Both the position numbers and the translations under genes were made by a program. A model generated the notes under the pieces. That model made no database searches. It saw only the letters and a program-made list of their open reading frames with translations, and was not told the DNA's origin. DNA of 37,498 bases from Methanomicrobia archaeon (lineage in GTDB: Archaea; Methanobacteriota_B; Thermococci; Methanofastidiosales; NM3), in the NCBI GenBank assembly GCA_030603445.1, contig JAUVXU010000016.1, forward strand, positions 1 to 37,498. The letters are read 5' to 3'. Shown here in pieces: positions 18,347 through 34,978 of this stretch (position 1 is its first letter; each line of letters starts with the position of its first letter).

Positions 18347-19129
18347 TCAGTCTACCACATCTATTAAGGTGACCTGGTATGAGTCTATCTTGGTGTTGAA
18401 GTTAAGCTCGGCTTCCACACCATAGACCTCTTTTATGTTCTTTGTCGTAAGCACCTTTTCTGCATCGCCACATGAATGCACACACCCATCATTTAGCAAT
18501 AGCAGGTTGTCACAGTAGCGCAGTGAATGATTGAGATTATGGGAGATTATTATTACCATCATATCCTTCTTTCTTGCCAGCTCGCGTATTAACTTCATTA
18601 TCTCGAACTGGTGGTTGATATCTAGTTGTGATGTTGGTTCGTCAAGAAGGAGTATCTTTGGCTGCTGAGCCAGCGCCCTTGCTATTATAACGCGCTGGAA
18701 CTCTCCTCCGGAAAGCTTTGATATTGGCCTGTCATAAAGATGCTCTATGGATGTAAGGTGCATTGCTTCATGGACCACATCTACATCGCCTTTGTTTTCC
18801 CTTTGAAATCTGGAAAGATGCGGCATTCTGCCCATCATCACAACATCAAGGACATTGAAAGGAAATGTTATCGAGGAGCTCTGGGGCACAACCCCAAAAT
18901 ATTGGGCGATTTTTTGCCTACGCCACTTTCCCACATTCTCTAAATCCAAAAGTATCTTTCCCTTTTGTGGTCTGACTGCCATGCGCATGCACTTGAGCAG
19001 CGTTGTCTTTCCAGAACCATTTGGCCCGATAACACCAAGGACCTCTCCGCTCCTAGCACAAAATGAAACGTTCTTAAGAACTTTTTTTGAGTTGTATGAA
19101 AAATCCAGGGACGATATGCACAGTTCCAA
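18347..19129 (-). CDS. ABC transporter ATP-binding protein, FecE/BtuD type
   Basis: The ATPase that drives a type II importer for iron chelates, haem or corrinoids. All motifs are present: Walker A GPNGSGKTT, the Q-loop in VVPQSSS, signature LSGGEFQRVIIARAL, Walker B ILLLDEPTSQLD and the switch His in IIISHN. The length (260) is normal. It is the third gene of a binding protein, permease, ATPase operon and begins one base after the permease stop. The substrate cannot be read from the ATPase. Confidence 0.93.
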   Translation of the reverse strand: MELCISSLDFSYNSKKVLKNVSFCARSGEVLGVIGPNGSGKTTLLKCMRMAVRPQKGKILLDLENVGKWRRQKIAQYFGVVPQSSSITFPFNVLDVVMMGRMPHLSRFQRENKGDVDVVHEAMHLTSIEHLYDRPISKLSGGEFQRVIIARALAQQPKILLLDEPTSQLDINHQFEIMKLIRELARKKDMMVIIISHNLNHSLRYCDNLLLLNDGCVHSCGDAEKVLTTKNIKEVYGVEAELNFNTKIDSYQVTLIDVVD

Positions 19130-19130
19130 G

Positions 19131-20186
19131 CTACCACCCCATGCTTTCTTTCCTTCTTCTTAACAGATACAAAAAGAAGGGAACACCGAACAATGATGTT
19201 ATGATCCCAACCGGCAGCTCGGCCGGCCGGATGACCGTTCTAGCAAGCGTATCTGTCAAAATAAGGAATATGCTTCCCATCAAAACGGATGATGGAATAA
19301 GTATTTTATGATCCGGCCCGACCAATATGCGTGTCACATGTGGTATTATTAGCCCAACAAAACCTATAACCCCCGAAACGGCAACGCATGCGCCAACTGT
19401 CAGTGCTGTTAGGGTAAGTATGAACTTCTTTAGGCCCTCAACATTTATCCCAAGGTCTGATGCATTCTCTTCGCCAAGCAAAAGCGCATTGAGCTCCCTG
19501 GAGAAGAACACGAACACCGGAACGCTAACAACGATAAATGGTATGGTCACCAGCACCTTGTCCCAGCTTGCAGCCCAGAGGCCTCCCATCATCCAAAAGA
19601 CGATACGCTCCAGCTTCTCATCAGACAAGTAAAGCATAAGTGACACCAATGCAGAGAAGAAGGAGGATACGGCTATTCCTGATAGTAGCAGCGTTTCTAT
19701 AGGCACCCTGCCGTTAACACGCGATATGAGATAAACGGAAAACACGGTCAAAGTCGAAAAGAGAAACGCAGCAAAAGGGACAAATATATACGCAAGCCCA
19801 AGATTTATTGCCAAGGCCGCACCAAATGCGCCCCCAGAAGATACACCACATATGAAAGGTGATGCCATAGGATTGCGAAACAATCCCTGCATAGCGCAGC
19901 CAGAAACTGCAAGCCCTATGCCGACAAGCATGCCAAGAATTACACGGGGGAGACGAACATCCAAAACGATTGCATTGTAGGAATGGGGCCACGTCTGAAC
20001 AATTGAGTCTCCAAGATAAGGGATCTGTGAATAAAATATCTTTAAAATTACAACTGGGCTTATGGAAACGGGCCCGACCATTATGCCTACTATGATTGTC
20101 ACTAAAAGTAGAAAAGAGAGGCCCACAAGTATGGTAAGCCTCTTTATTCTCTGATCATGGTAGTATGATTCCAGATCATGCATCAC
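19131..20186 (-). CDS. ABC transporter permease, FecCD/BtuC family
   Basis: The membrane subunit of the importer, with about ten hydrophobic segments in 351 residues. Family hallmarks are VRLPRVILGMLVGIGLAVSGCAMQGLFRNPMASP near residue 75, GVSSGGAFGAAL, and VSGVIGFVGLIIPHVTR near the C terminus, which contacts the ATPase. The GTG at 20186 or the ATG at 20183 can start it; GAGTGA, the end of the previous gene, may serve as ribosome site. The operon is binding protein, this gene, then the ATPase. Confidence 0.92.
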   Translation of the reverse strand: MMHDLESYYHDQRIKRLTILVGLSFLLLVTIIVGIMVGPVSISPVVILKIFYSQIPYLGDSIVQTWPHSYNAIVLDVRLPRVILGMLVGIGLAVSGCAMQGLFRNPMASPFICGVSSGGAFGAALAINLGLAYIFVPFAAFLFSTLTVFSVYLISRVNGRVPIETLLLSGIAVSSFFSALVSLMLYLSDEKLERIVFWMMGGLWAASWDKVLVTIPFIVVSVPVFVFFSRELNALLLGEENASDLGINVEGLKKFILTLTALTVGACVAVSGVIGFVGLIIPHVTRILVGPDHKILIPSSVLMGSIFLILTDTLARTVIRPAELPVGIITSLFGVPFFLYLLRRRKESMGW

Positions 20187-20189
20187 TAT

Positions 20190-21521
20190 TCACTCAAAAT
20201 GTTCAGGATAAAACCATTTCGCCAGCTGTTCAAGGCCAAGCACCAGTCTTGGGTTTGATGTTAGATGGTCGCTCTCGATAGAATACACCTGCTCGTTCTT
20301 AACAGCAGAGATGTTATCCCACCCTTCACGTGCCTTTATTTCCTCCACACTGGCCCCATATGACAAGACTATTATAATGTCTGGGTCTTGGTCTATTATC
20401 CACTCACTTGAAAGCACGGGATACTTCGTTTCCTGGTCCCCTGCAATGTTATAACCTCCGGCAATTGTGATAAGCTCGCCTGTAAAGGTGTTTTTATTTA
20501 ATGTCTTAAATGGTTTTGATGTTTCATAATACACCTTTGGCCTCTCATCAGAGACAATACTAGATACATAAGAATTGATATCAGATATCGTTTTGTCCAT
20601 TGATGATATTATAGATTGCGCCCCTTCTTCCTTGTTGAGTATTGTGCCAAAGAGAGCTATTTCGTCATATACGCCCTGTACAGAAGATGGGTTGATGGCC
20701 ATTACATTAATTCCCTTCGCCTCTATGCTTTCAATAGCCTCGTCATAGTAGTACCACATGACGACAAGATCGGGTTCTAGTTCTATGAGTTTTTCCATAT
20801 CAAGGGATGACCCGCTACCAAGATTTGGTATGTCTAGTACCTCTGAAGGGTACTTGCTGTACTTCCCCCTTCCAACAACAAGGTCTCCTGCACCAATGGC
20901 AAATATGACCTCTGTTGAAGAACCTGCAAGAGAGACTACACGCTCAGGCACTTTCTCTATGAAAACATCCCTTCCGGCGCCGTCTACAAAGCTGAAGTAT
21001 ATGTAGTTCTCAAATATGGATGGGGGTATCAAGACCTCATCTATGACATGAACGACCCCATTTGTGCACGAAATGTCTTTCTCTGTGACAGAAGCGTTGT
21101 CTAGCATAATGTCTCCTGCTGTTGAAATACTAATCGATTCCCCCTGCATAGTCTCCAGCGTCTTCATCTTAGATACATTTGCAATAGAATAGTCGCCTTG
21201 TACTATATGATAAGAAAGTATTTCAAAAAGCAGTTCTTCGTCTGCAAGATAGTTTCCAAGCTTTTCCTCTGATAGCTTGGAAAATGCATCATTAGAAGGC
21301 AAAAATACTGTGATTGGGCCTTCAATATTAAGCATATCCGCAAGGCCTACCGTATCAAAGACCTGAAGAAATGTAGAGAACGTTCCGTCTTCAGTAGCCA
21401 TTTCCATGGCGGTCTTATCTGGAGATGATCCTCCAGTTACACAACCACTGACCGCAAGGCCTGCAAGCATTATAAGTACCATAATAATTTTACTTTTTTG
21501 TGTCACTTTTTTTTCCTCCAT
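20190..21521 (-). CDS. FAS1 (fasciclin) domain fused to FecB/BtuF-type substrate-binding lipoprotein
   Basis: Solute-binding component of the ABC importer, with an unexpected extra domain. After a lipoprotein signal (MLAGLAVSGC, Cys anchor) comes a complete FAS1 domain of about 130 residues with both conserved boxes, ITVFLPSNDAFSKL and NGVVHVIDEVLIPP. A full BtuF/FecB domain follows (VPERVVSLAGSSTEVIFAIGAGDLVVG, LEPDLVVMW, ending LGLEQLAKWFYPEHF). FAS1 usually mediates adhesion, so the fusion may tether the binding protein to the envelope or a matrix. The frame is open to 21641. The ATG at 21521 is one start; the GTG at 21506 has GGAGG eight bases before it and is equally likely. Substrate may be a corrinoid, given the corrinoid enzymes nearby, or an iron chelate. 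Confidence 0.88.
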   Translation of the reverse strand: MEEKKVTQKSKIIMVLIMLAGLAVSGCVTGGSSPDKTAMEMATEDGTFSTFLQVFDTVGLADMLNIEGPITVFLPSNDAFSKLSEEKLGNYLADEELLFEILSYHIVQGDYSIANVSKMKTLETMQGESISISTAGDIMLDNASVTEKDISCTNGVVHVIDEVLIPPSIFENYIYFSFVDGAGRDVFIEKVPERVVSLAGSSTEVIFAIGAGDLVVGRGKYSKYPSEVLDIPNLGSGSSLDMEKLIELEPDLVVMWYYYDEAIESIEAKGINVMAINPSSVQGVYDEIALFGTILNKEEGAQSIISSMDKTISDINSYVSSIVSDERPKVYYETSKPFKTLNKNTFTGELITIAGGYNIAGDQETKYPVLSSEWIIDQDPDIIIVLSYGASVEEIKAREGWDNISAVKNEQVYSIESDHLTSNPRLVLGLEQLAKWFYPEHFE

Positions 21522-21554
21522 ATCACGTTTAACTAAAAACAAATTTAACATCGC

Positions 21555-21563
21555 ATTTATAAG
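21555..21563 (-). promoter_or_regulatory. TATA-like box for the FAS1-BtuF/permease/ATPase operon
   Basis: CTTATAAAT on the minus strand predicts transcription from about 21532, just ahead of both possible starts of the binding-protein gene. It supports rejecting the 40-codon upstream extension of that reading frame. Confidence 0.55.
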
Positions 21564-21683
21564 TTTTACTAGCAAATATTGGATAAAACATGAAATGGTG
21601 ACACATTCTAACATTATTTCTGTAAAAGGTAACATGTTCAAGTTCCATTTTGTAGTTTGTATTGATTAAATAAAATTGGGAAA

Positions 21684-22613: not shown

Positions 22614-23759
22614 TTATCCTTCTGATTTCAATTTTTTTAGTGCGATTGATAATATTGGGGGCGTAATAAGTGTGGTTACTATCACCATTGTAAGTATTAT
22701 AGAAGCTATCTCCGAGGATATGATGCCATATTCAAGACCAATTTTTACAAGCACCAGCTCCACACCTGCTCTTGGTATCATGGCAACGCCTATTGCAAAA
22801 GATTCCTTGCCTGTAAAGTTGGAGATGCGTGCACCAACCCCGCAACCAACAACCTTTCCGATTATGGCCACTGTTATTAGCACAATCGTGAAAAGGCCAA
22901 GGGATGAAACAGCACCGATATCAAACTGCATTCCTATTGTCACAAAGAAAATAGGAATAAAAAACGATTCACCAAAAAGAGATACGTGCTCCAGAAGCAT
23001 TCTAGAAAGGTGCGTCTGTCCCAGAATTAATCCCCCTATAAAAGCGCCAGTTATTATCGACAATCCAATATCTTCTGCAATCACCCCTAAAAAAAGGGCA
23101 ACTATAAGGCCAAGAAGCAAAATATCTGCAGTGTTTTGTATTTTAATGATCCTTTTTGAGAACTTTTTAAATAGTTTAACAACTAGTGTCAGTGACAGTA
23201 TCAAAAAAAGCGCAGATAAAAACACTGTTGAAAAAATCTCTTTTATAGCTATACTTCCCTTAATAGCTATTGTTGCCACCATGCCGGCCGCAATTATCCC
23301 TATTACATCATCTATTACTGCTGCAGTCAGTATAACTGTGCCCACCTTCGTTTTTATCATCTGCAGTTCCATAAGGATCTCCGTTTTTACGCCCACAGAT
23401 GTTGCCACTAAAGAAACACCAACAAACATTGATATGATTTTAGAATAGCCAAAAAGAGAGGTAACACCATATCCCAGGATAAAAGGCAGGATAACGCCTG
23501 CAAATGCAACAATTGTTGATGATTTTCCTACCCTCTTAAACTCTTCAAAATTTGTGGATAAGCCGGCAGCGAATAAAAGAAATAAAATGCCAATATCTGC
23601 AACATCTTCCATAGTTCTTGTTAATGTTATTATGCCAAGATTCCCAATTATCATTCCAATGACTAATTCACCCAAAAGTAAAGGTTGCCTTATCTTTTGT
23701 GATAATAATCTTCCAAGCAATGCCGCGATTAATACTATCAACAAGTTTGCACTGAACAT
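22614..23759 (-). CDS. Cation/proton antiporter, CPA2 (KefB/NapA-like) family
   Basis: A membrane antiporter of 381 residues with about eleven or twelve hydrophobic segments and no C-terminal TrkA/RCK domain. The first helix ends GRLLSQKIRQPLLLGELVIG, as usual in CPA2. The paired aspartates in AAVIDDVIGI (residues 150-151) match the ion-binding site of NapA/NhaA-type electrogenic exchangers, so Na+/H+ exchange is more likely than K+ efflux; this is an inference. It lies 22 bases from the end of the methyltransferase operon on the same strand and could be read from it. Confidence 0.87.
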   Translation of the reverse strand: MFSANLLIVLIAALLGRLLSQKIRQPLLLGELVIGMIIGNLGIITLTRTMEDVADIGILFLLFAAGLSTNFEEFKRVGKSSTIVAFAGVILPFILGYGVTSLFGYSKIISMFVGVSLVATSVGVKTEILMELQMIKTKVGTVILTAAVIDDVIGIIAAGMVATIAIKGSIAIKEIFSTVFLSALFLILSLTLVVKLFKKFSKRIIKIQNTADILLLGLIVALFLGVIAEDIGLSIITGAFIGGLILGQTHLSRMLLEHVSLFGESFFIPIFFVTIGMQFDIGAVSSLGLFTIVLITVAIIGKVVGCGVGARISNFTGKESFAIGVAMIPRAGVELVLVKIGLEYGIISSEIASIILTMVIVTTLITPPILSIALKKLKSEG

Positions 23760-23781: not shown

Positions 23782-25482
23782 TTATAAAAACTCCTTAGGA
23801 GTCAAGGTTAATGTTCTCAGGTTCTGTAGCGGTGTTCCAACAGTAATATCACAACCTCCTGCCAAGATATAATCCCTTTTACCCATTTTCTCAATGCAAG
23901 ACCTTGCCTGAGATCTAACATCCTCTGGCCTTCCAATATAAAGTGTCTCAAGAGGACTTATATTGCCTAAAAGCGTGAGATTTGAATTTATCTTTTCTCT
24001 TGCGAACTTTAGATTTACATTTGAATCTACGCTTAATACATTAGTTTTAGCTTCATTAAATAACGTAAGGCGATCATTTATGTCACCGCAGATGTGAATG
24101 GCCGAGTATATATTTCTTTTACTACAATAGTTTAAGGTACGTTTAATGTAAGGGAGCGAAAATTCCTGAAATACTTCAGAAGATATTAACTCTCCTGATG
24201 CAACAGGATCACAAAAATGTATGCATTCAACACCTTTTTCTATAAGTATTTGAGAAAAACTCATTATTACCTTGGTGCAAAAATCAAGAAGTTTTAATGT
24301 CGACTTTCTATCTTTATAAATATCCATCATCAGGTTTTGAGTTCCTCTTATCTCGCCAGCAAGGGTAAAAGGCATAACAACACTCGCATATGAAAACTTC
24401 TCATCCTTGTTTAATTGGGAAATCTGAACAAATGTTTCAACAGCAGCCCTAATTCTTTCATTTTCCATAATATCGGGAAGTTCAAGATTATCAATATCAT
24501 GTGATTCTTTCAAAAGAGGTTTTATTGTGACAGGATTTCCTTTCGATTCAATCCTTACTTCCCCGCCAATCGCTTCGACAGGCGCAAGCCAGTCCCACAT
24601 ATTTTCAAAAGCATCAAATCCGCTCTTTTTTACTTCTTTAATTTGTATTGTTGCCGCACGCATGGGATCTTTTATAGATTTTGGAACAGATATTCTGGCA
24701 TGGTCAAGAGCCCAATAACCCTGGAAAGGGGGAGCTGTGGGGACGATGTCTGGTTCGTCATGTTCTAAAGTTGCAATAATCCTATCATAGGATTTTATTT
24801 TTCTTTTTCTTTTTGAGGTGTGCCTTTCCCTATCGACGATCAATTTTTCTGCTAGCTTAACTGCCTTTACAGCATCGTCTGCATAGCCATCTGCTCCAAT
24901 CCTATAGGCAAAATCTGAAGTTATGGGTGCACCGCCAATCATCACTTTTGTATCTTCTTTTTTTTCTAAAAAAAGATTTACAACATCAATCATGTTTTCC
25001 ATGGTTGTAGTCATCAAAGCAGATACTCCCACAATATCGGCATCCACTTCCTGTGATTTATCTAAAAATTCCTGGGGAGCTGTATCTGTCCCAAGGTCAT
25101 AGACCTCAAATCCAGCGGTCTGCAACATTATTTTCACAATATTTTTTCCTATATCGTGAAAATCACCACTTATGACCCCTAGAACAACTTTTCCCTTGAT
25201 TTTAGCTTTGATATGGTTATTAGAAAGATATGATTCTAAAATTTTTAAAGAAGAATTGGCAGCATTTGCCGAAAGAAGCATTTCAGGAATAAATATCTTT
25301 CTTCTCTCAAACAGCATGCTGACAACTTCCATGCTGTGTTGATATGCAATGGTTATCTCTTTATTGACATCTATTTTTTGATTTGTTTCTATTATTTTAT
25401 GTGAAGCTTCAATCGCCCCTTCTTCATCTCCGCCGATAATACATTTGCAAAGTCTTTCAATTACCCCCTCTTCATCGGACAT
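23782..25482 (-). CDS. Corrinoid protein fused to UroD/MtaA-type methyltransferase
   Basis: One chain of 566 residues carries both a methyl-cobamide carrier and a methyltransferase. Residues 1-95 are the helical cap, and 96-215 the B12-binding fold with GDFHDIGKN, His109 being the lower cobalt ligand. A basic linker (RERHTSKRKRKIK, 218-230) leads to a UroD-fold TIM barrel. The zinc ligands typical of MtaA/MtbA are present: His463-x-Cys465 in HICGD and Cys544 in GGCDI. Both halves closely resemble the adjacent separate corrinoid protein and the methyltransferase at 26586-27611, in the same order. The order is opposite to CmuA, where the corrinoid domain is C-terminal. A 68-base gap and its own GGGGGGAGA ribosome site precede it. 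Substrate unknown. Confidence 0.92.
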   Translation of the reverse strand: MSDEEGVIERLCKCIIGGDEEGAIEASHKIIETNQKIDVNKEITIAYQHSMEVVSMLFERRKIFIPEMLLSANAANSSLKILESYLSNNHIKAKIKGKVVLGVISGDFHDIGKNIVKIMLQTAGFEVYDLGTDTAPQEFLDKSQEVDADIVGVSALMTTTMENMIDVVNLFLEKKEDTKVMIGGAPITSDFAYRIGADGYADDAVKAVKLAEKLIVDRERHTSKRKRKIKSYDRIIATLEHDEPDIVPTAPPFQGYWALDHARISVPKSIKDPMRAATIQIKEVKKSGFDAFENMWDWLAPVEAIGGEVRIESKGNPVTIKPLLKESHDIDNLELPDIMENERIRAAVETFVQISQLNKDEKFSYASVVMPFTLAGEIRGTQNLMMDIYKDRKSTLKLLDFCTKVIMSFSQILIEKGVECIHFCDPVASGELISSEVFQEFSLPYIKRTLNYCSKRNIYSAIHICGDINDRLTLFNEAKTNVLSVDSNVNLKFAREKINSNLTLLGNISPLETLYIGRPEDVRSQARSCIEKMGKRDYILAGGCDITVGTPLQNLRTLTLTPKEFL

Positions 25483-25550
25483 TGATGTTTCTCCCCCCTA
25501 AAATAAAATGTATGCACCCTATTCACTTGTGCCTTTTTAAAGTTATTACT

Positions 25551-26573
25551 TTATAGTTTCCCCCTAATCTTTTTTGCAACATTAATATAATTGACGATGT
25601 TTTCTGTTGGAGTTTTAGGAGATATTCCGCACCCTGGAGCTATAATATCTGCCCCTTTAAGGATGCATGCTTTTGTTTCTGATTCTATCTTTTCCTTGCT
25701 GCCGAGCATAAGTGTATCTATTGGATTGATATTTCCCACCAGTGCTGAATTTTTCAAATATGTTTTTGCAGTTTCAATATCCACAAGATGGTCAATAGAT
25801 ATTCCCCTAGCACCAGTTTTTTCCATAGCATCCAAAATAGCGGTTGTGTCTCCGCAAATGTGTAGCACAGCAGGTGTTTTAAGGGTTTTTATAATATCCT
25901 CAATCCTTGGTGCAACCAAACGCTTGAAATCTTCTGGGCCTATTAATTCTGTGGTTGCAGAAGGATCTATTATTGTGATCGAATCAGCTCCCTGGTCCTC
26001 TAAATAATTTGAAAAACTAATACAAACCTCTTTCGAAAAATCTAATATTTCTTCTACAAAGCCAGGATTATCAAAAAAATCAAGTAGAAGATCTCCAATT
26101 CCTCTCAGATGCCCTGCTAGAGTGAATGGTCCCACAACGCCGCCAATTATTGGTATTTTGTCATCTGTCCATTCTTTTAACATAGATACTGCAGTTCCGA
26201 TTACTGGCATCCGCTTATCTTTTTCCGGATTGGGAACAGCAAGGTTCTCAAGAGACTTTTTATCAGAAACTGGATGTTTTTGAACAGAAGGTTGAGAAAT
26301 CAAGTCCCCCTGCTTTATTGTGCACCCAAGAGCTTCTGCTTCCACTGTTAAACAAAAAGGAACTCTTGCGCTTTCTATCCCTGTGTATTTCCAGGCGCCA
26401 AAAGAGAGTCTGGCCATCTTTAATGCATCACTATGTGCCTGGGGCCAAAAAGAGTCTGTCTTTTTCATCAGTTCTATAGTTCCAGTTTGAAGCGGACATG
26501 CACAGGATGGTCTTTCTATATCCCTACCTTCAAGAATATGTAGATATCTTTCTTTTAGTGTGAGTTCGCCCAT
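25551..26573 (-). CDS. UroD-family cobamide methyltransferase, MtaA/MtbA-like
   Basis: A 340-residue TIM-barrel methyltransferase. It moves methyl groups between a corrinoid protein and a substrate or acceptor such as coenzyme M or a pterin. Zinc ligands are His238-x-Cys240 (LHICGD) and Cys315 (APGCG), and the active-site DPSATTELIG strand is present. It diverges from its two paralogues, which share WDWLAPVEA and GPPFQGYWALD, whereas this one has ACPLQTGTIELM near the N terminus, so it probably has a different partner: it may be the MtaA-like second methyltransferase. GAGGAG lies before the ATG. The gene starts 12 bases after the preceding stop. Confidence 0.88.
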   Translation of the reverse strand: MGELTLKERYLHILEGRDIERPSCACPLQTGTIELMKKTDSFWPQAHSDALKMARLSFGAWKYTGIESARVPFCLTVEAEALGCTIKQGDLISQPSVQKHPVSDKKSLENLAVPNPEKDKRMPVIGTAVSMLKEWTDDKIPIIGGVVGPFTLAGHLRGIGDLLLDFFDNPGFVEEILDFSKEVCISFSNYLEDQGADSITIIDPSATTELIGPEDFKRLVAPRIEDIIKTLKTPAVLHICGDTTAILDAMEKTGARGISIDHLVDIETAKTYLKNSALVGNINPIDTLMLGSKEKIESETKACILKGADIIAPGCGISPKTPTENIVNYINVAKKIRGKL

Positions 26574-26585
26574 GACATCTCCTCA

Positions 26586-27611
26586 TTATAAAGGCAATTG
26601 GACAGCCTTTTTCCAGACTTCTATATTCTCTATGGGTGTGCCTGGAGCTATATCACATCCCGCACCCAAAATATGGCCTATGCCGCCCGTCTTTCGGATA
26701 CAGGATTTTGATTCTTCTAGGGTATCTTTCGGAGTTCCGTTAAATAATGTTTCAGCCGGATTGACATTCCCAAGAAGTGTTTGTTTGTTTCCAATTGTAT
26801 TTTTTGCATGTTCCAAATCTACGAGAAAATCTAATGAAAAAACATCTGCTCTTATGTCTGCTATGCTTTCAAGCCTGTCTGAAGTATTTCCACAAATATG
26901 CAGCAGAACATATCCATCCTGATCTCTTACTACCTTTGCAACGTCTTTTGTATATGACTGTGAAAATTTATCAAAATCTTCCTTTGATATCAGGTCCCCC
27001 GATGCTGTGGGATCGCAGAGAATTATCCCATCAACTCCCGAAGACATTAAATATTCACTATAATTCTTCAAAGTTTCAGTTGAGAAACTAAGCATGTCTT
27101 TAACAAATTTCGGATCATCGTATAGATCAAGCATCAAATTCTCCACGCCCCGGAGTTCTCCGACCAGGGTAAATGGACAAACTAGCGTCATGTATAAAAA
27201 TTTCTCTTTTCCAATTTTCTCCATTAATATCTTTGTAGTTTGCATTGCACTTTTGGCGCGGTAATCTTTTTCCGGGTCAGGTTGTTCCATTTTATCAAGT
27301 ACATCTGGGCCGCTGATAATATGTGTCATGGTGTTTGGACCCCCCACATCTGGAATGTTAACCTGGCATCCAAGTGCCTCAACAGGTGCAAGCCAATCCC
27401 ACATCGTTTCCAGGCCATCGAATTCACATTTATTTGTTACATCGATTTGTGCCAATGCTGCGAGCTTTGGATTTTCTATAGATTTTCCTACATTTAATTT
27501 AAGGTAATCAAGAGCCCAATAACCTTGGAAAGGCGGTCCTGTAGGTATACGATCCACCCCTTCCTTTTCGATAGCTGCTATAAACCGCTCTTTTGAACTC
27601 ATTTTTTCCAC
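26586..27611 (-). CDS. UroD-family cobamide methyltransferase, substrate-side candidate
   Basis: A 341-residue UroD-fold methyltransferase with zinc ligands His238-x-Cys240 (HICGN) and Cys319 (GAGCDIAPGTP). It is very similar to the C-terminal half of the fusion protein two genes on: both have PPFQGYWALD, MWDWLAPVEA, PFTL-GE-RG and a DP-ASG-LIS strand. It starts 3 bases after the stop of the corrinoid protein gene, so the pair is translationally linked. By analogy with MtvB/OdmB- and CmuA-like proteins it could demethylate the organic substrate, but whether it is first or second methyltransferase cannot be decided from sequence alone. Confidence 0.88.
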   Translation of the reverse strand: MEKMSSKERFIAAIEKEGVDRIPTGPPFQGYWALDYLKLNVGKSIENPKLAALAQIDVTNKCEFDGLETMWDWLAPVEALGCQVNIPDVGGPNTMTHIISGPDVLDKMEQPDPEKDYRAKSAMQTTKILMEKIGKEKFLYMTLVCPFTLVGELRGVENLMLDLYDDPKFVKDMLSFSTETLKNYSEYLMSSGVDGIILCDPTASGDLISKEDFDKFSQSYTKDVAKVVRDQDGYVLLHICGNTSDRLESIADIRADVFSLDFLVDLEHAKNTIGNKQTLLGNVNPAETLFNGTPKDTLEESKSCIRKTGGIGHILGAGCDIAPGTPIENIEVWKKAVQLPL

Positions 27612-27614
27612 TTT

Positions 27615-28256
27615 TTAGCCCCCTAATAGCTTTCCAACAAGTTTTACTGCTTTGGCTGCATCAGCGGCATAGCCGTCTGCTCCAATTGAATCGGCGTAAC
27701 TCTGTGAAACTGGCCCCCCTCCAATTATAACTTTGCAATTAACATTTTGTTCTTTAAGTGATTTTATGATATCGGGCATGCCAATCATGCTTGTAGTCAT
27801 GAGGGCAGACATTCCAACTATGTCTGTAGCCTCTTCTTTGGCAGTCTCCACAAATTTCTCAACAGGGACGTCTTTTCCAAGATCGATTACATCAAATCCA
27901 GCTGCTTCACAAAGCAGTTTTACTAGGTTCTTTCCAATATCGTGTATGTCGCCTGCAACTACGCCCAATACAATTTTTCCATTTGTTCTAACAGAACTTA
28001 CTGGTATGTGTGGTTTTAATATATCAACTGCCATATTCATCGCTCTTGCTGAGCGAAGTATTTGAGGGACAAATACCTCTCTTTTTTCGTATTTATCACT
28101 TACAACCTGCATACCCGGGCTAAGTCCTTCCATTATGCAGACATATGCATCAATACCTATCTCAATCGCTCTTTTCGCAGTTTTAATTGCAAGTTCATGA
28201 TCTCCGCTGACAACTGCACTTTTGAGCGTTTCAAATATTTTTTCTTTTTCTTCCAT
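27615..28256 (-). CDS. Corrinoid protein (MtaC/MttC-like methyl carrier)
   Basis: A 213-residue methyl-corrinoid carrier. Residues 1-90 are the helical cap that shields the methyl group (EGLSPGMQVVSDKYEKREVFVPQIL), and the rest is the Rossmann-like B12 domain with GDIHDIGKNLV, His105 being the lower cobalt ligand, and IVGMSALMTTSM for the nucleotide loop. The length is normal for MtaC/MtbC/MttC proteins. The ATG lies one base after the stop of the iron-sulfur flavoprotein gene, and the methyltransferase follows 3 bases on. Reductive reactivation of oxidised Co(II) would be needed; no RamA/RACo gene is in the window. Confidence 0.94.
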   Translation of the reverse strand: MEEKEKIFETLKSAVVSGDHELAIKTAKRAIEIGIDAYVCIMEGLSPGMQVVSDKYEKREVFVPQILRSARAMNMAVDILKPHIPVSSVRTNGKIVLGVVAGDIHDIGKNLVKLLCEAAGFDVIDLGKDVPVEKFVETAKEEATDIVGMSALMTTSMIGMPDIIKSLKEQNVNCKVIIGGGPVSQSYADSIGADGYAADAAKAVKLVGKLLGG

Positions 28257-28257
28257 T

Positions 28258-28836
28258 TTATCGCCTTTTAATCATTTTAACAACTTCACAAACTTTTCTT
28301 GCTAAATTTTTGCTTGTTTCAATACCGAATTCATCCTTTTTGGCATCATTAACATCGCATCCTACACCAACTCCCCCAAAATGGGAGCTTTCTTTCTCAC
28401 TGACTACAACTGCATTGTGGGTAAGGAAAAATGCGTGTATTTGTTGCAACGTTGTTTCCTGACCCCCGTTTCTATATGCTCCAACACTAATTCCGCCCCC
28501 GACCTTGTTTTGTAGAACAAAACTATCCCGTATGCAGCAGGTTCTGTCCATCATTGCTTTTGTCTGGGAAGAAACACCGCAAAAGTAGACTGGGGAACCT
28601 ATTATGATGCCATCAGATGATGCCATTTTTTCAATTACAATCGCCATATCATCCTTTTGTGAACATTCCCCCTTTTCCTCGCAATGCCCACATCCAAGAC
28701 AAGAAGCAATTTGAAGGTCTTTTAAAAGTATTATTTCTGTTTCAAATCCGGATTTTTGTATTTCTTTTAAAGCTTCTTCTACCAAAAACTGTGTATTTCC
28801 CGCTCTTGGAGAACCAACTATCCCCAATATCTTCAT
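28258..28836 (-). CDS. Iron-sulfur flavoprotein (NADPH-FMN reductase/ISF family)
   Basis: A 192-residue flavodoxin-fold protein with the FMN loop GSPRAGNTQFL at the N terminus. The compact cysteine motif CLGCGHCEEKGEC (CxxCxxCx5C) is the ISF family's [4Fe-4S] site. GSPVYFCGVSSQTKAMMDRT is the second FMN contact. ISF proteins pass electrons between ferredoxin and other acceptors. Here it overlaps the oxidoreductase gene by four bases and precedes the corrinoid protein by one, so a role in carrying electrons from aldehyde oxidation or in reducing the corrinoid is plausible but inferred. Confidence 0.9.
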   Translation of the reverse strand: MKILGIVGSPRAGNTQFLVEEALKEIQKSGFETEIILLKDLQIASCLGCGHCEEKGECSQKDDMAIVIEKMASSDGIIIGSPVYFCGVSSQTKAMMDRTCCIRDSFVLQNKVGGGISVGAYRNGGQETTLQQIHAFFLTHNAVVVSEKESSHFGGVGVGCDVNDAKKDEFGIETSKNLARKVCEVVKMIKRR

Positions 28837-30677
28837 AAAAATTCCCCTTTTAGCCCTATAGACTCCAGTTTAGCTTTGGAGGGATATCCCTTTTCGTCCC
28901 ACCCACGAAGGGTATAACATTCTTTGAGCATCTCTTCAAAAGGAGGGACACGGCCTTTTCTGGCTCCTTCTTTTGAAGGAACCATTAACTTTTTTGGCAA
29001 TATATCGTACTCGGGGCCTTTTCCATCCCTAATGTTTAGCAAACGCTGGAAGTTGTAGATTCTTTCTCCACAAGTTGCAAGATCTTTGATAGACCATCCC
29101 CACCCGGTAGTTGCATTTAGGGCATCAAGATATTGTGTAATTGAAGCTTCACCTTCAACAAAGACAAATGCACAGAGAACGGCCGATCCTAAGAAAGCGC
29201 CAAAATCCTGGTGTACAATTGCAAGCTTTGTCTTATCTTCCACAACAAAAAACCTAGGTTTTTTGCCTACATCAAATTCAGGAAGTATAAAACCACCAAT
29301 CTCTGTTTCTTCCGGGCATCCCCTATAATGGCAAGCGCCCCTTGTGCCTGTAGCATAGTTGACTGCAAGGCTATAGCACAGTCTCGGATCATGCCCGGGC
29401 AGATCAAGCCCTCTGACATGGACCGCATAATCCTCTTTTCCAAACTTCTTCGCTACATTTAAAGTGCCTTCAGCAAGCAAGTCTCCAATGCCTTTTCTGT
29501 TTCCTATCATCTCAACAAGTCTGATCACGGCCTCGGAATCGCCCCATTCTATCTTCATATCACCCAGTTGAGCAGCAGGTATCCAGCCGTTCTCATATGC
29601 CTGCATGGAAAAACCAATCACAGACCCAGTGGAGATAGTATCTATTCCTAACTTGTTGCAAATGTCATTTGCTTTTGCAATAGCTTTGGCATCGTTAACA
29701 AGACAGTTGGCTCCGAGAAGCGCAAGAGTTTCATATTCGGGGCCAGGGCCATCAATCATATATGGCTCCGTAATGCTTATGTGTCTATGACAAGCAAGAG
29801 GACAATACAGGCAGGCCTTTGGTTTTACATTCAATGTCTCGTTGTAATTTGGAGTGCATAGGGGTTCTCCTTCTTCAGTCCAGCAGCAGCCGTCCCAGTA
29901 TTTTTTTGGGGTGTTATCTAATGCATTGAATGTTTCAAATCCCCCAACTGTCCCCCATTTTCTTAGGTCTTTTCCTCTTTCATTTTTAGCCATTTTTTTC
30001 ATTATATCTTTCTGGATTTCCTTTAGCAGTTCTTCATTATGCACTTCTAGTTTTTTTCCTCCAAGAACACTGACTGCTTTAAGGTTTTTTGAACCCATTA
30101 CAGCGCCATTGCCTGTCCTGCCGGCATAACTATGCTTATCTACAACAACACATGCAAAACGTACTTTTGATTCTCCAGCAGGCCCTATTGCTGCCACGCT
30201 TGCTTTTTTATCAGTCTCATTTTTTATAGCATCAATAGATTCAAAGCTGTCCTGCCCCCATATCCCGGAAGCATCTCGTATCTCCAGATTATCCTCCTCT
30301 ATCCAGAGGTATACGGGGGATTTTGATTTTCCTTCCACAATAAGAGCATCAATACCGCAGCCTTTGATATTTGGGCCGAATTTCGCGCCAGCTGCAGAAT
30401 CACCCAAAGTATATGTTAGTGGTGATTTAGAAATCAACGACCATTTTGCCGAACCAGGTATTTTCGTTCCCTGAAATGGCCCTGTAGCAAATATTATTTT
30501 ATTGTTAGGGTGGAGGGGATCAACTTCCTTTGGAACTTCATCATAGAGTATCTTGGCGCCAAGCCCCGAGCCACCTAAAAATAGCTTGTAAAAATCATCA
30601 TCAAATGTATCATATTTTATCTTGCCATCTGTAAGATTTACTCTTGCAATTTTATTAAAGTAACCTGATCCCGACAT
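28833..30677 (-). CDS. aor: Aldehyde:ferredoxin oxidoreductase (tungsten enzyme)
   Basis: It oxidises aldehydes to carboxylic acids at a tungsten bis-pterin centre and reduces ferredoxin. The 614 residues are of normal length. Hallmarks include the N-terminal YFNKIARVNLTDGKI, GGSGLGAKILYDEV, TGPFQGTKIPGSAKW, GRTGNGAVMGSKNLKAV for the pterin, and the [4Fe-4S] ligands Cys289, Cys292 and Cys296 in CLYCPLAC, with a further Cys in GSAVLCAFV. The specific aldehyde cannot be told. AAGGAGG lies 9 bases before the ATG. A terminator-like hairpin separates it from the upstream iron-sulfur protein gene, so its expression may be attenuated relative to the first three genes. Confidence 0.95.
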   Translation of the reverse strand: MSGSGYFNKIARVNLTDGKIKYDTFDDDFYKLFLGGSGLGAKILYDEVPKEVDPLHPNNKIIFATGPFQGTKIPGSAKWSLISKSPLTYTLGDSAAGAKFGPNIKGCGIDALIVEGKSKSPVYLWIEEDNLEIRDASGIWGQDSFESIDAIKNETDKKASVAAIGPAGESKVRFACVVVDKHSYAGRTGNGAVMGSKNLKAVSVLGGKKLEVHNEELLKEIQKDIMKKMAKNERGKDLRKWGTVGGFETFNALDNTPKKYWDGCCWTEEGEPLCTPNYNETLNVKPKACLYCPLACHRHISITEPYMIDGPGPEYETLALLGANCLVNDAKAIAKANDICNKLGIDTISTGSVIGFSMQAYENGWIPAAQLGDMKIEWGDSEAVIRLVEMIGNRKGIGDLLAEGTLNVAKKFGKEDYAVHVRGLDLPGHDPRLCYSLAVNYATGTRGACHYRGCPEETEIGGFILPEFDVGKKPRFFVVEDKTKLAIVHQDFGAFLGSAVLCAFVFVEGEASITQYLDALNATTGWGWSIKDLATCGERIYNFQRLLNIRDGKGPEYDILPKKLMVPSKEGARKGRVPPFEEMLKECYTLRGWDEKGYPSKAKLESIGLKGEFL

Positions 30678-30690
30678 TGAAAATTGCCTC

Positions 30691-30722
30691 CTTAAAAAAA
30701 AGAAAAGCCCCTAAAGGGCTTT
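30691..30722 (-). terminator. Intra-operon terminator/attenuator hairpin
   Basis: On the minus strand AAAGCCC-TTTAG-GGGCTTT is followed by TCTTTTTTTT: a 7-bp stem, 5-base loop and T-run. The TAG stop of the HdrD-like gene is in the loop, and the ribosome site of the oxidoreductase gene follows directly. It should partly end transcription inside the operon, depending on ribosome position. Confidence 0.65.
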
Positions 30723-31991
30723 GTCTAAAAGTTGCATCAGATCGTATGTCGGTATATCTTTTTTGATGGCTTTAGCTCCGTCATTAAGGTTCGCATGACA
30801 GAATGGACATATAGAAACAACAGCTTCTGCTCCAATTTCCATTGCTTCCTCAATTCTGACCGAAGACGTGTTTACTGCAAACTCTGGATAATCAGTTTTG
30901 ACTCCTCCGCCTGCACCACAACAAAGTGAATCTCTCTTTATCCGATTGAATTCAACAAGCTCCAGACCTGGAATAGCTTTCAAAAGTTCCCGGGGCTGTT
31001 CGTAGACCGAGTGGCTCTGATCTTCTTCTCCACTGCCAAGAACGTATCTGTGAAGATGTCTTCCTGTGTGACATGGGTCATGATACGCTACCTTCAATTT
31101 TACGGGTTTTTCAGGTTTCCATTCACCATTTTTGAATTTTTCGTGGAGATAGTCTATAGTATGCATTATTTTTATGCCATCCACATAGTCCTCATATCCT
31201 TCTATGTCTGGATAATCCTTGTTAAAGCATCTGAAACAACCTGCACAGGACGTTATAATAGTATCAACGCCGCGTTTATCATGGAGCTCCTTGAACGTTT
31301 CCAGTGTTTTCTTTGCGACCCTCTCAAATCCTTGCTCCACACCCATTCGTCTGACAGTAGAACCACAACAGACCTCTTTATCATAAAGATATCCGAAATC
31401 AACGCCTATTTTGTTGAGTACATTTACAGTGGAAACAGCTATGTCCCTAATTGGTGCATTGTACGCGGGAGTGCATCCTGCATAATAAAGCACTTTAGCA
31501 TCTTCCTTATTTATATTCTTAATAGGCGTGGTTTTCTTGAAAGCATTTGTCCATTTGGCCCTGAGCTTTCGTGGCCCAGTGTAAGGATTGTCGTTGTTTT
31601 TCATCGATTTTATTAGAATTTCTCCTGATTGGGGGCCAAGCCCTCGTTCTTGAATTTCAAACCGTATATGCTGAAGAATATCGGCGCCATATGCCCTAAT
31701 TGGCTTGAAGGCATCTGTATCGTTAAGATAACATTGTTCTGCGCAATTCCCACAAAGGGTACAGTAGCTAAATGTCTCTGCAACATCGTTATCCCACTTG
31801 AGATCCCCGTTTCTAAGTGCCCGATATATCTGCATCCTGCCCTGCAGTGTATAATCGAGGAAAGATCTGTCAATAAAGGAGGGGCATATCCTCTCTCTTG
31901 TTCCTTCGTGTTGGGTTCTGCATGTTCCGCACCCTATGCATCGCTCGGGAAGATTATTTTCCTTCAATATTTTTTCAATATCTAGTGTCAT
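30711..31991 (-). CDS. HdrD/GlpC/GlcF-type iron-sulfur protein with two CCG domains
   Basis: An electron-carrying subunit of 426 residues. Two N-terminal clusters are bound by Cys18, 21, 24 and 36 (CIGCGTC...CP) and by Cys77, 80, 83 and 87 (CTLCGNCAEQC). Two CCG domains follow (EVCCGSTVRRMG and DSLCCGAGGGVKTD), the fold that holds the noncubane cluster in HdrB/HdrD and occurs in GlcF, GlpC and LutA. It starts directly after the stop of the flavoprotein gene, as in GlcD-GlcF pairs, so it probably accepts that flavoprotein's electrons. The acceptor (thiol/disulfide, quinone or ferredoxin) is not indicated; no membrane cytochrome is present. Confidence 0.9.
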   Translation of the reverse strand: MTLDIEKILKENNLPERCIGCGTCRTQHEGTRERICPSFIDRSFLDYTLQGRMQIYRALRNGDLKWDNDVAETFSYCTLCGNCAEQCYLNDTDAFKPIRAYGADILQHIRFEIQERGLGPQSGEILIKSMKNNDNPYTGPRKLRAKWTNAFKKTTPIKNINKEDAKVLYYAGCTPAYNAPIRDIAVSTVNVLNKIGVDFGYLYDKEVCCGSTVRRMGVEQGFERVAKKTLETFKELHDKRGVDTIITSCAGCFRCFNKDYPDIEGYEDYVDGIKIMHTIDYLHEKFKNGEWKPEKPVKLKVAYHDPCHTGRHLHRYVLGSGEEDQSHSVYEQPRELLKAIPGLELVEFNRIKRDSLCCGAGGGVKTDYPEFAVNTSSVRIEEAMEIGAEAVVSICPFCHANLNDGAKAIKKDIPTYDLMQLLDKAL

Positions 31992-33449
31992 TTATATCCC
32001 CCCTATTTGTCCCCGATTCATGATTCTATACGGGTCTATGGCATCTTTTATCGTTTTTATCAGCTTTACAGTGTTCGGATCTGCATTTTCCATATTAACA
32101 CGACTTGCCCAATAAGTGGGCTTGTAGATTACTGCGCCCAATTTGACTTCAGCTTCGCCGATCTCTTTAAGAAGAGCCCTATCTTTCTCTTTTTCTTTCT
32201 CACTGGCATCTTTATGCTGGAATACATTAAACCGAAGTATGGTTTCATGGCCGTTTTCCATTACTCTGTTATATTGCATTATGGGATGATCAGGTTCTAC
32301 ATAACCACGTTTTTCGTAGATCTTCTCAGCAATCCGATAAAGCTCCGCCTGTAGAAATGCGGGTACATAACAGCCGACCCATTGGCCAATGCCGCCTCTA
32401 TTGCCATCCATGTCATTGGTGAGCTGCATTGGTAGATCATGGAAGTACTGCAATTGATTTCCAGGTGGAAGTGTAGGTAGTCCTTCCTTTTCTGGTGTGA
32501 TCACAATGTTCTTATCCTCGGCGCAAATCTTTTTCAATATCTCTATCTTTGCATCCATCAACTTTTCACTTGCAGCTTGCAAAACAACCCAGCTCTGAAG
32601 TTCAGCCTCGCCTTTTTCTCTGTAAAACGGCATTTTCTCTCCGCATTCCACTCGCCCCCATGCCCAGTTGTTTGATGCAATATCACAAGCAATCTGTTGT
32701 TTGGCAATATTCATCTGATTTGGGTATCCGTGCTCAACAGTATCTGCATCCACGTAAAATGCTTCCTGATATGCTGGTTCCTTGTAAATCTTTATTCCGG
32801 CTTTTGTAACGATGCCCGTAGTACCTGCCCAACCAACAAACAGGCCTGTAAGATCTATAACCGGGGCCCGTGATCCCCAATATGGCGATATCATGTGCGA
32901 GCCTAATCTGACAAGTTCCCCGTTGGGCATTACTGCCTCCAGGCCATTGAGATAGTAGCTTCCATCCCCGTGGGCAAGACCAATATCCATCATGCCACAC
33001 AACAAATATCCTGTTACGACACCGCTTGCCGGTGGTGAGTAAGTATATGCACCAACATAACCGGGTGCTCTTTTTACCATCTCTCTCTTAAAATCTGCCC
33101 AAGTAAGCCCCCCTTCTACTACAGCATAGAGGGCGTCTGTGTTTATTTCTTCAACTTTGTTCATTCTTCTTAAATCAATTATCAAGCCCCCGTGATAGGC
33201 ATTGCACATGCCCGCAGTAGTTAAATTGCAGACCCACGGAATAACATTGACCTTGTTTTTCCAAGCAATGCGCATTATGGCCTGTATTTCCTCCGTATTT
33301 GCAGGCATGCATACTGCATCTGGTTTACCAGGCGGTTCTACCGCACACCAATCGTTTGAATATGCATAACATGTCGTTTTCTTTTGAGAAATATATTTTT
33401 GTCCAACTACTCCTTCAAGTTCATTATATACTTTTTTATCTAATACCAT
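31992..33449 (-). CDS. FAD-linked oxidoreductase, GlcD/vanillyl-alcohol-oxidase superfamily
   Basis: A flavin dehydrogenase of about 485 residues. The PCMH-type FAD domain shows the diphosphate loop VIPWVCNLTTAGMC, LIIDLRRMNKVEEINTDALYAVVEGGLTW, and SPPASGVVTGYLL...GDGSYYLNGLEAVMPNGELVRLG. The C-terminal part ends IKDAIDPYRIMNRGQIGGI, close to the LKxALDPxxIxxPG end of 4-cresol dehydrogenase and vanillyl alcohol oxidase, and also compatible with GlcD. No covalent-FAD residue is assigned. I choose the ATG at 33449, which has GGAGGTG six bases upstream; the open frame to 33539 runs into the poly-T hairpin and the permease. A 2-hydroxy acid or an aromatic alcohol or phenol are candidate substrates. 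Confidence 0.85.
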   Translation of the reverse strand: MVLDKKVYNELEGVVGQKYISQKKTTCYAYSNDWCAVEPPGKPDAVCMPANTEEIQAIMRIAWKNKVNVIPWVCNLTTAGMCNAYHGGLIIDLRRMNKVEEINTDALYAVVEGGLTWADFKREMVKRAPGYVGAYTYSPPASGVVTGYLLCGMMDIGLAHGDGSYYLNGLEAVMPNGELVRLGSHMISPYWGSRAPVIDLTGLFVGWAGTTGIVTKAGIKIYKEPAYQEAFYVDADTVEHGYPNQMNIAKQQIACDIASNNWAWGRVECGEKMPFYREKGEAELQSWVVLQAASEKLMDAKIEILKKICAEDKNIVITPEKEGLPTLPPGNQLQYFHDLPMQLTNDMDGNRGGIGQWVGCYVPAFLQAELYRIAEKIYEKRGYVEPDHPIMQYNRVMENGHETILRFNVFQHKDASEKEKEKDRALLKEIGEAEVKLGAVIYKPTYWASRVNMENADPNTVKLIKTIKDAIDPYRIMNRGQIGGI

Positions 33450-33468
33450 TATTTCCACCTCCCACTTT

Positions 33469-33514
33469 ATAGACCTAAAATAAAAAAAAGAAAAAAAGAA
33501 AAAAAGAGGTCTAT
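33469..33514 (-). terminator. Inverted repeat around a U-rich loop after the permease gene
   Basis: ATAGACCT (minus strand, 33514-33507) and AGGTCTAT (33476-33469) form a perfect 8-bp stem round a 30-base, almost pure T loop with scattered C. The TAG stop of the permease lies in the first arm. The U-tract could end archaeal transcription, and the stem could hide it, so this looks like a second attenuation point in the operon. Confidence 0.5.
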
Positions 33515-34875
33515 TTTTCTTCCGTGCCTGTCGGTACACTAATTACGTACTCTTCTGGATATCTGCTTCGTTCATATCGTAGGAACAGCCATACTAACAA
33601 GCCTAGGAAGTAATAAACTGCGAACATTTTCCATAGCGTGTTGTCAAAGTATTTTATAGTGTAGTAAAACATCGCAATTCCGCAAATCACAGCTAGAACG
33701 CCGGTAGCAACGCCGCCGGGTACTTTCCATGGTCTCTTCCAGTTCGGATGTGCGCTTCGAAGTTTGATGAACGAAAGGCTTGACACAGTGTATGTTATTG
33801 TCACTCCTACTGCCATTAGCGTGAACAGATATTCAAGCCAACTGGTTCCAGATATCGCTATGAAGAACAAAGCGACAGCAAGTATTGCCCAGTTTGCTGT
33901 GCTGGGTACGTGGTGTTTGTTCAACCTGTCAAATTGTCGTGGAAGTATTCTTGCTTTCCCCATGCTGTACAGAAGCCTTGAGCTTGCAAGCCAGAATCCA
34001 TTGAGGCATGTAGCAAGTGCGAAGAAGTTTGCCAAAGCTATCGCATACATGGCCCAACTACCATACAATGCTCCTGCAATCGTTGCGCTTACCATTTCAG
34101 TTTCTATCAGTTGATCAAACGGCATCATTCCGGAATTCACTATACACAACCCTGCGTACAGGACTATGCAGAAAAGAACCGAACCCACTATAAGCCTCCA
34201 ATGTTTCTTAGCAGGATACTTTGCCTCTTCAGCAAACTGAGGAATTATTTCAAATCCAAAGAACATAGTCACCATCAAAGCAGTTGCCGTGAAGAAACCA
34301 CTAGTACCTGTCTGGTAGAACGGATGTAAATGTGCTGTTGAAAACGTTGAGTGTGTGACGAACAGAGCCATTATGGTAAATGCGACTACCACAAGCACAA
34401 TAAACATTATAAACTGTGCCGTAGCGCTGATAATCAGTTCCCGAGAGTTCAGGATCGCAAAACAGATAGCAAGAATAGCAGCTATTATCATCATCTGTGA
34501 TAATGTCATAGCAGGCAGCCAGAGGTATTGGATTATCCAAAGTAGAGCCATAAGCTGGAACGAAAGAACTGTTGTATATGAAAGTAGCAAGCTCCATGAG
34601 GCCCAGTAAGATACTTCTTTTCCAAAAGCATTTTGTATAAATACAAAGGGTCCACCAACAAAAGGTAACATTGCCGTCATTTCACCATATACTAGACCTA
34701 TTGGGACACACATAAGTCCCGTGATCACAAATGATAGAGCAATCGAAGGTCCTGTAAGTGATATCCACCACTGCATCATTACGAGCCATGGGCCAATAAT
34801 AGCCGCTGTTGCCATAGCAAATAAGTACCAGCCTCCAAGAGATCGCGTGAGTTTCATTGTTTCATTTTCAGCCAT
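33511..34875 (-). CDS. APC-superfamily amino acid/amine permease
   Basis: A 454-residue transporter with about twelve membrane segments. The first helix has AAIIGPWLVMMQWW in place of the usual glycine-rich GxGIF loop, and GYLVYGEMTAMLPFVGGPFVF-like helix 2 (GLVYGEMTAMLPFVGG) and WLASSRLLYSMGKARILP are typical of APC. The first gene of the nine-gene island, it has a perfect GGAGGTGA ribosome site 7 bases before the ATG. It probably imports the substrate on which the island acts. APC carriers usually take amino acids or amines, which favours an N- or S-methylated amino compound, though some import other acids. The substrate is not determined. Confidence 0.9.
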   Translation of the reverse strand: MAENETMKLTRSLGGWYLFAMATAAIIGPWLVMMQWWISLTGPSIALSFVITGLMCVPIGLVYGEMTAMLPFVGGPFVFIQNAFGKEVSYWASWSLLLSYTTVLSFQLMALLWIIQYLWLPAMTLSQMMIIAAILAICFAILNSRELIISATAQFIMFIVLVVVAFTIMALFVTHSTFSTAHLHPFYQTGTSGFFTATALMVTMFFGFEIIPQFAEEAKYPAKKHWRLIVGSVLFCIVLYAGLCIVNSGMMPFDQLIETEMVSATIAGALYGSWAMYAIALANFFALATCLNGFWLASSRLLYSMGKARILPRQFDRLNKHHVPSTANWAILAVALFFIAISGTSWLEYLFTLMAVGVTITYTVSSLSFIKLRSAHPNWKRPWKVPGGVATGVLAVICGIAMFYYTIKYFDNTLWKMFAVYYFLGLLVWLFLRYERSRYPEEYVISVPTGTEEK

Positions 34876-34960: not shown

Positions 34961-34978
34961 ATTGCAAACTGTTGCAAC
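34961..34978. promoter_or_regulatory. Candidate operator, copy 1 (ATTGCAA-ACTG-TTGCAAC)
   Basis: An 18-bp inverted repeat with 7-base arms and a 4-base spacer, with one mismatch at the outer base. It lies about 40 bp upstream of the island's TATA-like box and 52 bp from its twin. Size and symmetry suit an Lrp/AsnC dimer, encoded divergently next door. Confidence 0.65.

Follow-up and report, generated by a model that had tools for sequence, protein, structure and literature searches.

A conserved operon of a Methanofastidiosia-type archaeon combining corrinoid methyltransferases with flavin, CCG and tungsten redox proteins, possibly for use of a single methylated substrate

Methyl-reducing methanogens are thought to require H2 or formate from outside, and they encode many corrinoid methyltransferase sets without an assigned substrate. 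H2-dependent methyl-reducing methanogenesis has been inferred for members of the Methanofastidiosia-type group. HdrD-GlcD pairs of methyl-reducing archaea have been proposed to reduce CoM-S-S-CoB, the heterodisulfide of coenzyme M (CoM) and coenzyme B (PMC10667645; PMC6783470). Among UroD-type methyltransferases, those acting on S-methyl groups typically carry a His-Cys-Cys (HCC) zinc set, of which O-demethylases have one or both cysteines substituted (Kountz and Balskus, PMC10418091). Here we describe a nine-gene operon at positions 23782-34875 of a 37,498-nucleotide stretch of DNA (hereafter the window; contig C44, JAUVXU010000016.1 of assembly GCA_030603445.1) from a 1.62-Mb archaeal genome, 96% complete, whose Methanofastidiosia-type host encodes methyl-CoM reductase (MCR) outside the operon. 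Judging from gene content and conservation, we hold it an even proposition that this operon serves methylotrophy in a methyl-reducing methanogen and packages methyl transfer together with oxidation of the same substrate.

All nine open reading frames (ORFs) lie on the minus strand, and Pfam matches confirmed the nine families named in a preliminary description of this DNA. The operon begins with an APC-family permease (454 aa, 33511-34875; AA_permease_2, 139 bits), a FAD-binding dehydrogenase (485 aa from its likely ATG, 31992-33449; FAD_binding_4), an HdrD/TfrB-like protein with two CCG domains (426 aa, 30711-31991; CCG, 112 bits in two stretches, plus Fer4_8 and Fe-S motifs) and a tungsten-type aldehyde:ferredoxin oxidoreductase (AOR; 614 aa, 28833-30677; AFOR_N, 256 bits, and AFOR_C, 390 bits). 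These are followed by an Isf-like iron-sulphur flavoprotein (192 aa, 28258-28836; FMN_red, 120 bits, with a CX2CX2CX5C motif), the corrinoid protein CorP (213 aa, 27615-28256; B12-binding_2 and B12-binding, cobalt-ligand motif DIHDIG), the methyltransferases UroD1 (341 aa, 26586-27611; URO-D, 229 bits) and UroD2 (340 aa, 25551-26573; URO-D), and Fus, a fusion of a corrinoid domain with a second UroD1-type methyltransferase (566 aa, 23782-25482; B12-binding_2 and B12-binding at residues 7-208, URO-D at 233-560, motif DFHDIG). Gaps in transcription order are ~61, 0, 33, -4, 1, 3, 12 and 68 bases; the first assumes the likely ATG of the FAD gene at 33449, as the GTG at 33539 with which its listed ORF begins would overlap the permease.

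Gene order supports the reading of these genes as one conserved unit. The order Perm-FAD-CCG-AOR-CorP-UroD1-UroD2-Fus recurs in the sister genome G001, with protein identities of 77, 80, 78, 66, 65, 64, 56 and 56%, respectively, and in sister genome G002 as far as its 9-kb contig extends, CorP frame included. Over the operon stretch G001 and G002 share 94.8% DNA identity. Conservation of the operon is non-trivial because the window and G001 are only 67% identical in DNA over the permease-to-AOR part; genes flanking the operon differ or are rearranged in the sister genomes. The iron-sulphur flavoprotein is absent between AOR and CorP in G001, where a 33% relative lies ~2.3 kb beyond Fus. Among 115 sampled genomes of the parent phylum, FAD proteins of >33% identity were confined to this genus. 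Judged by this conservation, the nine-gene operon is more than a chance adjacency.

Relatives of the module are also present in a second archaeal phylum, the Thermoproteota. UroD1 relatives (E up to 1e-50, 42-47% identity) were found in 5 of 398 Thermoproteota genomes and FAD orthologues (44-47% identity) in 4, with three genomes common to both sets (hypergeometric P ~4e-6). In G119, a fourth UroD1 carrier, a FAD fragment (41%) lies 1.3 kb away from UroD1, where the contig ends. In G534 (locus L251) the order is APC permease (35%), AOR (31%), a ThiS-like protein, FAD (45%), CCG (37%) and UroD1 (42%). G665 (L249) has FAD (47%), CCG (38%), UroD1 (47%) and CorP (53%), and its contig also carries an MtaA-like gene. 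G550 (L252) has AOR (34%), a ThiS-size protein, a UroD1-like protein (33%) and CorP (56%); an MtaA-like gene and a FAD-CCG pair that has diverged are in the vicinity. MCR was detected in four of the five UroD1 carriers compared with 27 of the 398 genomes overall (P ~8e-5); in G689 the enzyme is a divergent one (75 bits). Beyond this phylum, three Methanosarcina-like MCR genomes encode UroD1 (52-55%) beside CorP, near FilR1-type regulators; at one of these loci (L237) UroD1-CorP is followed by UroD2 (45%), and at another (L234) an APC permease lies downstream.

The UroD proteins of the operon all score far higher on CoM-methyltransferase models than on hemE models, in keeping with their earlier assignment as methyltransferases rather than true uroporphyrinogen decarboxylases. 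UroD2 passes the cut-offs of both PRK06252 (374 bits; cut-off 244) and TIGR01463 (302 bits; cut-off 235), falls in the MtaA-type clade of our tree and has MtaA (4AY7, 220 bits) as its closest solved relative. Its score on the MtaA equivalog model (345 bits) is below the cut-off of 400, and the MtbA equivalog cut-off is likewise not reached; a synteny-proven MtaA, encoded beside MtaC and MtaB in G002, scores 326 bits on the CoM-methyltransferase model and 349 bits on the MtaA model. By family assignment, UroD2 is thus an MtaA-like methylcorrinoid:CoM methyltransferase, and because it scores like a real MtaA and sits in the MtaA-type clade, CoM is the methyl acceptor predicted from the operon itself. 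The preliminary description had placed both the final methyl acceptor and the corrinoid activator elsewhere; the former now appears to be provided for within the operon, and the latter does lie elsewhere, as a full-length RACo on contig C27, adjoining a UroD-corrinoid fusion that is kept in many genomes of the host's order.

UroD1 and Fus score below both cut-offs (199 and 189 bits on TIGR01463, 192 and 194 bits on PRK06252, respectively). UroD1 and the UroD domain of Fus form one clade, in which UroD1 groups with Methanosarcina-like proteins (support 100/99) and the Fus domain with Thermoproteota UroD1 (98/87). These scores and this grouping make UroD1 the strongest candidate for the methyltransferase specific to the substrate, with Fus a candidate second one that carries its own corrinoid. 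HCC zinc ligands are kept in UroD1, UroD2 and Fus, and the DxHxxG motif is kept in the corrinoid domains of CorP and Fus. CmuA and a clostridial mlp-like cluster from plasmid searches served as references, without authentic MtoB, OdmB, MtsA or MtbA sequences. UroD1 falls outside the mtpCAP-like lineage, whose reference set is known by synteny only and is the sole Mts/Mtp representative. Assignment of UroD1 as MtpA was considered and dropped, as an mtpCAP-like set (corrinoid-UroD-MFS) occurs separately and distantly in the same Methanosarcina-like genome.

The redox half of the operon comprises the FAD protein, the CCG protein and AOR. The CCG protein retains the cysteine motifs of both CCG domains plus 4Fe-4S motifs, and its strongest NCBIfam match is TfrB (173 bits, below the cut-off of 385). 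The FAD protein scores 72 bits on the glcD model (cut-off 568). A structural model of it (mean pLDDT 74) lies nearest to the D-2-hydroxyacid dehydrogenase mLDHD (TM-score 0.83, normalized by target), followed by VAO-type enzymes and p-cresol methylhydroxylase (about 0.75), and the protein has a conserved Tyr-Lys near its C-terminus in place of the GEHG metal motif of the D-lactate dehydrogenase group. AOR matches 1AOR with 419 bits and keeps the CxxCxxxC...C cluster motif (four Cys), the EYE glutamate and the active-site histidine. AOR genes as such are common across the host's order, and the host genome (G000) holds an apparently broken AOR copy on contig C11 (113434-114544), in two pieces with in-frame TAG and TAA.

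The methyl donor is probably a sulphur-methyl compound, that is, a thioether (R-S-CH3). A thioether is likelier than methoxyaromatics or amines because of the HCC zinc site and because UroD1, at 341 residues, is shorter than MtoB (47-48 kDa). Methoxylated aromatics and methylated amino compounds, the two substrate classes suggested at first, are accordingly both disfavoured: the former by the HCC ligands of UroD1 and Fus and by the size difference from MtoB, the latter by ligands that the literature ties to S-methyl chemistry. Oxidation of one substrate from alcohol to aldehyde to acid is plausible. As a guess within the thioether class, an alcohol, aldehyde or hydroxy acid bearing a methylthio group (methionol, methional or 4-methylthio-2-hydroxybutyrate, for example) would account for all genes of the set.

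Our best reading is that one substrate, its identity and the electron acceptor both predicted from gene families, would give its methyl group to CoM and its electrons to heterodisulfide and ferredoxin. The APC permease would import a methylated compound resembling an amino acid, with a thioether the most likely choice. The methyl group would be moved onto cobalt by UroD1 acting with free CorP and by Fus via its own corrinoid domain; UroD2 would pass it from there to CoM, and MCR would then yield methane and CoM-S-S-CoB. The FAD protein would oxidise the organic part at an alcohol or hydroxy group, with electrons passing via the CCG protein to CoM-S-S-CoB by analogy with HdrD-GlcD, and AOR would turn the resulting or co-produced aldehyde into an acid with ferredoxin. 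The Isf-like flavoprotein may serve as an electron shuttle, RACo from the other contig would reactivate the corrinoid, and a divergently encoded Lrp/AsnC-like regulator may control the operon via a paired palindrome. More tentatively, methanogenesis here might run without H2 or formate from outside, with one imported compound of this methylthio kind giving its methyl group to CoM and, via the soluble FAD-HdrD-like pair and AOR, the electrons for reduction of CoM-S-S-CoB and ferredoxin.

Several observations weigh against our best reading. Further AOR genes occur elsewhere in the host genome, the FAD protein lacks the GEHG motif, and no MCR match was found in the Thermoproteota carriers G119 and G915, both of which may be incomplete. 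HCC also occurs in a UroD protein encoded beside a corrinoid protein, RACo and MtrH in another genome, so the ligand rule is not absolute. No FAD, CCG or AOR gene lies near UroD1-CorP in the Methanosarcina-like genomes, so the methyl-transfer core predates the redox addition or is more widespread than it. Asgard genomes carry FAD-CCG pairs with no methyltransferases nearby, and FAD-CCG is therefore not tied to a methyl-transfer role.

The last two observations lend weight to the best-surviving alternative, that the operon serves two substrates: thiol or thioether methyl transfer would run beside oxidation by FAD-CCG of an unrelated hydroxy acid or alcohol for CoM-S-S-CoB reduction, with AOR handling aldehydes generally. 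HdrD-GlcD elsewhere has been proposed to reduce CoM-S-S-CoB with electrons from the oxidation of lactate, and the structures nearest to the FAD model are D-2-hydroxyacid dehydrogenases. We nevertheless rate this arrangement as unlikely, given that the same FAD subfamily adjoins UroD1 in another phylum and that the motif of D-lactate dehydrogenases is missing.

Methoxylated aromatics would engage the same genes differently: UroD1 or Fus would carry out O-demethylation, a VAO-like reaction would oxidise an aryl alcohol, and AOR would act on the aldehyde. Structures matched by the FAD model do include VAO, eugenol oxidase and p-cresol methylhydroxylase, and aryl aldehydes are plausible AOR substrates, but the intact cysteines of UroD1 and Fus, the greater size of MtoB and the presence of an MtaA-like protein instead of an MtrH-like MtoA gene in the operon make this improbable. 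A reverse or relief role, in which methylated thiols are made from methyl-CoM under redox stress and the oxidases rebalance electrons, would recall Methanosarcina acetivorans, in which expression of mtpCAP and mtsD rises under MCR or Hdr limitation and which is believed to give off methyl sulphides. A dedicated permease heads the operon, however, and another stands beside the related cluster of G534, which suggests uptake and renders this role quite improbable. N-methyl donors, either methylated amino or guanidino compounds, are a slimmer prospect again. APC or LIV-type transporters and the arginase-family genes near some related modules are compatible with them, but HCC ligands favour sulphur, and known amine methyl donors are served by MttB/MtbB/MtmB-type rather than UroD-type enzymes. 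A guanidino substrate was dropped for the window, whose operon holds no arginase-family gene (no genome-wide search was made). Although the FAD-CCG, AOR and UroD families are each common, a chance neighbourhood of unrelated genes is already largely refuted by the gene order kept in G001 and G002 and by the recurrence in Thermoproteota.

The region upstream of the permease has features that suggest regulation. Two operator-like palindromes of the form GTTGCAA-N4-TTGCAA, GTTGCAACAGTTTGCAAT (34961-34978) and, 52 bases upstream of it, GTTGCAAGTATTTGCAAC (35013-35030), enclose an AT-rich TATA-like box that lies next to the first. With up to one mismatch, GTTGCAAN4TTGCAA has five matches in the window on both strands compared with 0.15 expected. 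G001 has a copy with one mismatch at the corresponding place ahead of its permease gene, and a half-site only at the second position. A sigma-70 promoter scan, which does not cover archaeal promoters, gave chance-level results. Divergent from the operon, a gene for a helix-turn-helix (HTH) protein of ~183 aa (35219-35770, plus strand) resembles Lrp/AsnC regulators and is 57% identical over 167 aa to a G001 gene located 3.2 kb past the distal end of the operon there. Its family assignment is weak, with HTH_24 and AsnC-type matches above cut-off for the G001 protein only. From its position and sequence it is likely the regulator of the operon, and together with the paired palindrome it gives indirect support to the earlier view of the island as inducible. 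None of the usual start codons (ATG, GTG or TTG) is present where the conserved part of the frame begins; TTT takes the place of the G001 TTG, which could reflect a rare start codon or a sequencing error.

Downstream of Fus, a Na+/H+ exchanger gene (22614-23759, minus strand; Na_H_Exchanger, 199 bits) follows after 22 bases on the same strand and is a possible tenth gene; the nearest exchangers in G001 and G002 are just 33-34% identical to it and convergent, so the orientation is not kept. Further downstream, 2-5 kb from the operon, an ABC ATPase, a FecCD-type permease and a binding protein with an apparent extra N-terminal fasciclin-like domain (18347-21641) possibly serve cobalamin or iron-chelate uptake. 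The window also encodes a secreted-looking protein of 2167 aa with many repeated carboxypeptidase-regulatory-like units (4588-11091).

Related gene sets occur elsewhere. On contig C5 of G000 (L041:12342-17991), a second corrinoid-UroD-MtaA set lies beside another FAD-CCG pair; its MtaA passes the MtaA equivalog cut-off with no MtaB adjoining, and the set is also found in Methanofastidiosum, there next to RACo. A paralogous set within the host's taxonomic family (L043:9044-20000 on contig C40 of G000; also L046, L047 and L049) starts with FAD and continues with CCG (47% identical to that of the window), ferredoxin, an AFOR_N-only protein, a BPL_N-domain protein, HdrC, HdrB, HdrA, MvhD, an Fe-S protein and a formate dehydrogenase-like gene. 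Its first five genes resemble a set in Desulfobacterota (L086, L093 and L113) comprising FAD-CCG (CCG 41-45%), ferredoxin, AFOR_N-only and BPL_N-like proteins, an MtaA-like UroD and an arginase-family protein, with a LIV-type ABC transporter in L086 and L113 and an aldehyde dehydrogenase-like protein in L093 and L113. This Desulfobacterota module is related to that of the window but different. A distinct arginase-family protein with its metal-binding motifs kept lies near FAD-CCG/UroD modules in several lineages (L251:11531-12574, L252:12654-13859, L064:1143-2228 and L113:18186-19259). Methanosarcina-like genomes also carry sets of corrinoid protein, UroD (364-366 aa) and UroD2-like protein (L238, L239, L240, L241 and L244), some near PAS-type or FilR1-type regulators.

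If the proposed coupling holds, it would provide a specific case, open to testing, in which one compound acts as both methyl and electron donor, a function for one branch of the widespread and unexplained HdrD-GlcD pairs, and an overlooked organosulphur source of methane. Were the organic part indeed the source of electrons, the two branches of methyl-reducing methanogenesis would draw on one and the same molecule, and H2 from outside would not be needed.

Each family in the operon is known, and no report of AOR or HdrD-GlcD together with corrinoid methyltransferases in these organisms was found in open-licence literature; the parts are therefore known, and their combination in one conserved operon appears to be new. 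The HdrD-GlcD genes of Methanomethylicia (Verstraetearchaeota) and Korarchaeia likewise place a FAD-linked oxidase next to an HdrD-like protein with two CCG domains in MCR-bearing archaea, whereas the pair in the window sits inside a methyltransferase operon with AOR, and its FAD subfamily is just ~31% identical to the Methanofastidiosum pair. UroD2 resembles MtaA and MtbA in its subfamily scores, HCC zinc site and MtaA-type clade, but it remains under the equivalog cut-offs and has no MtaB or MttB partner. The Mts/Mtp systems (MtsD/F/H, mtpCAP) share UroD-type methyltransferases that have HCC ligands and are paired with or fused to corrinoid proteins, a transporter and a regulator; mtpP belongs to the MFS transporters, whereas the permease here is of the APC family, and FAD, CCG and AOR are additional. 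The Mto/Mtv O-demethylases also combine a corrinoid protein, a UroD-superfamily methyltransferase and a transporter, but the operon in the window is without MtrH-like MtoA or an activase and has a smaller UroD, HCC ligands and an MtaA-like partner. Type 1 mlp clusters (Kountz and Balskus) come close in their several UroD paralogues with a corrinoid protein, HCC ligands and sulphur- or selenium-methyl metabolism; compared with these, the operon has no Ram/RACE gene and adds the FAD protein, the CCG protein and AOR.

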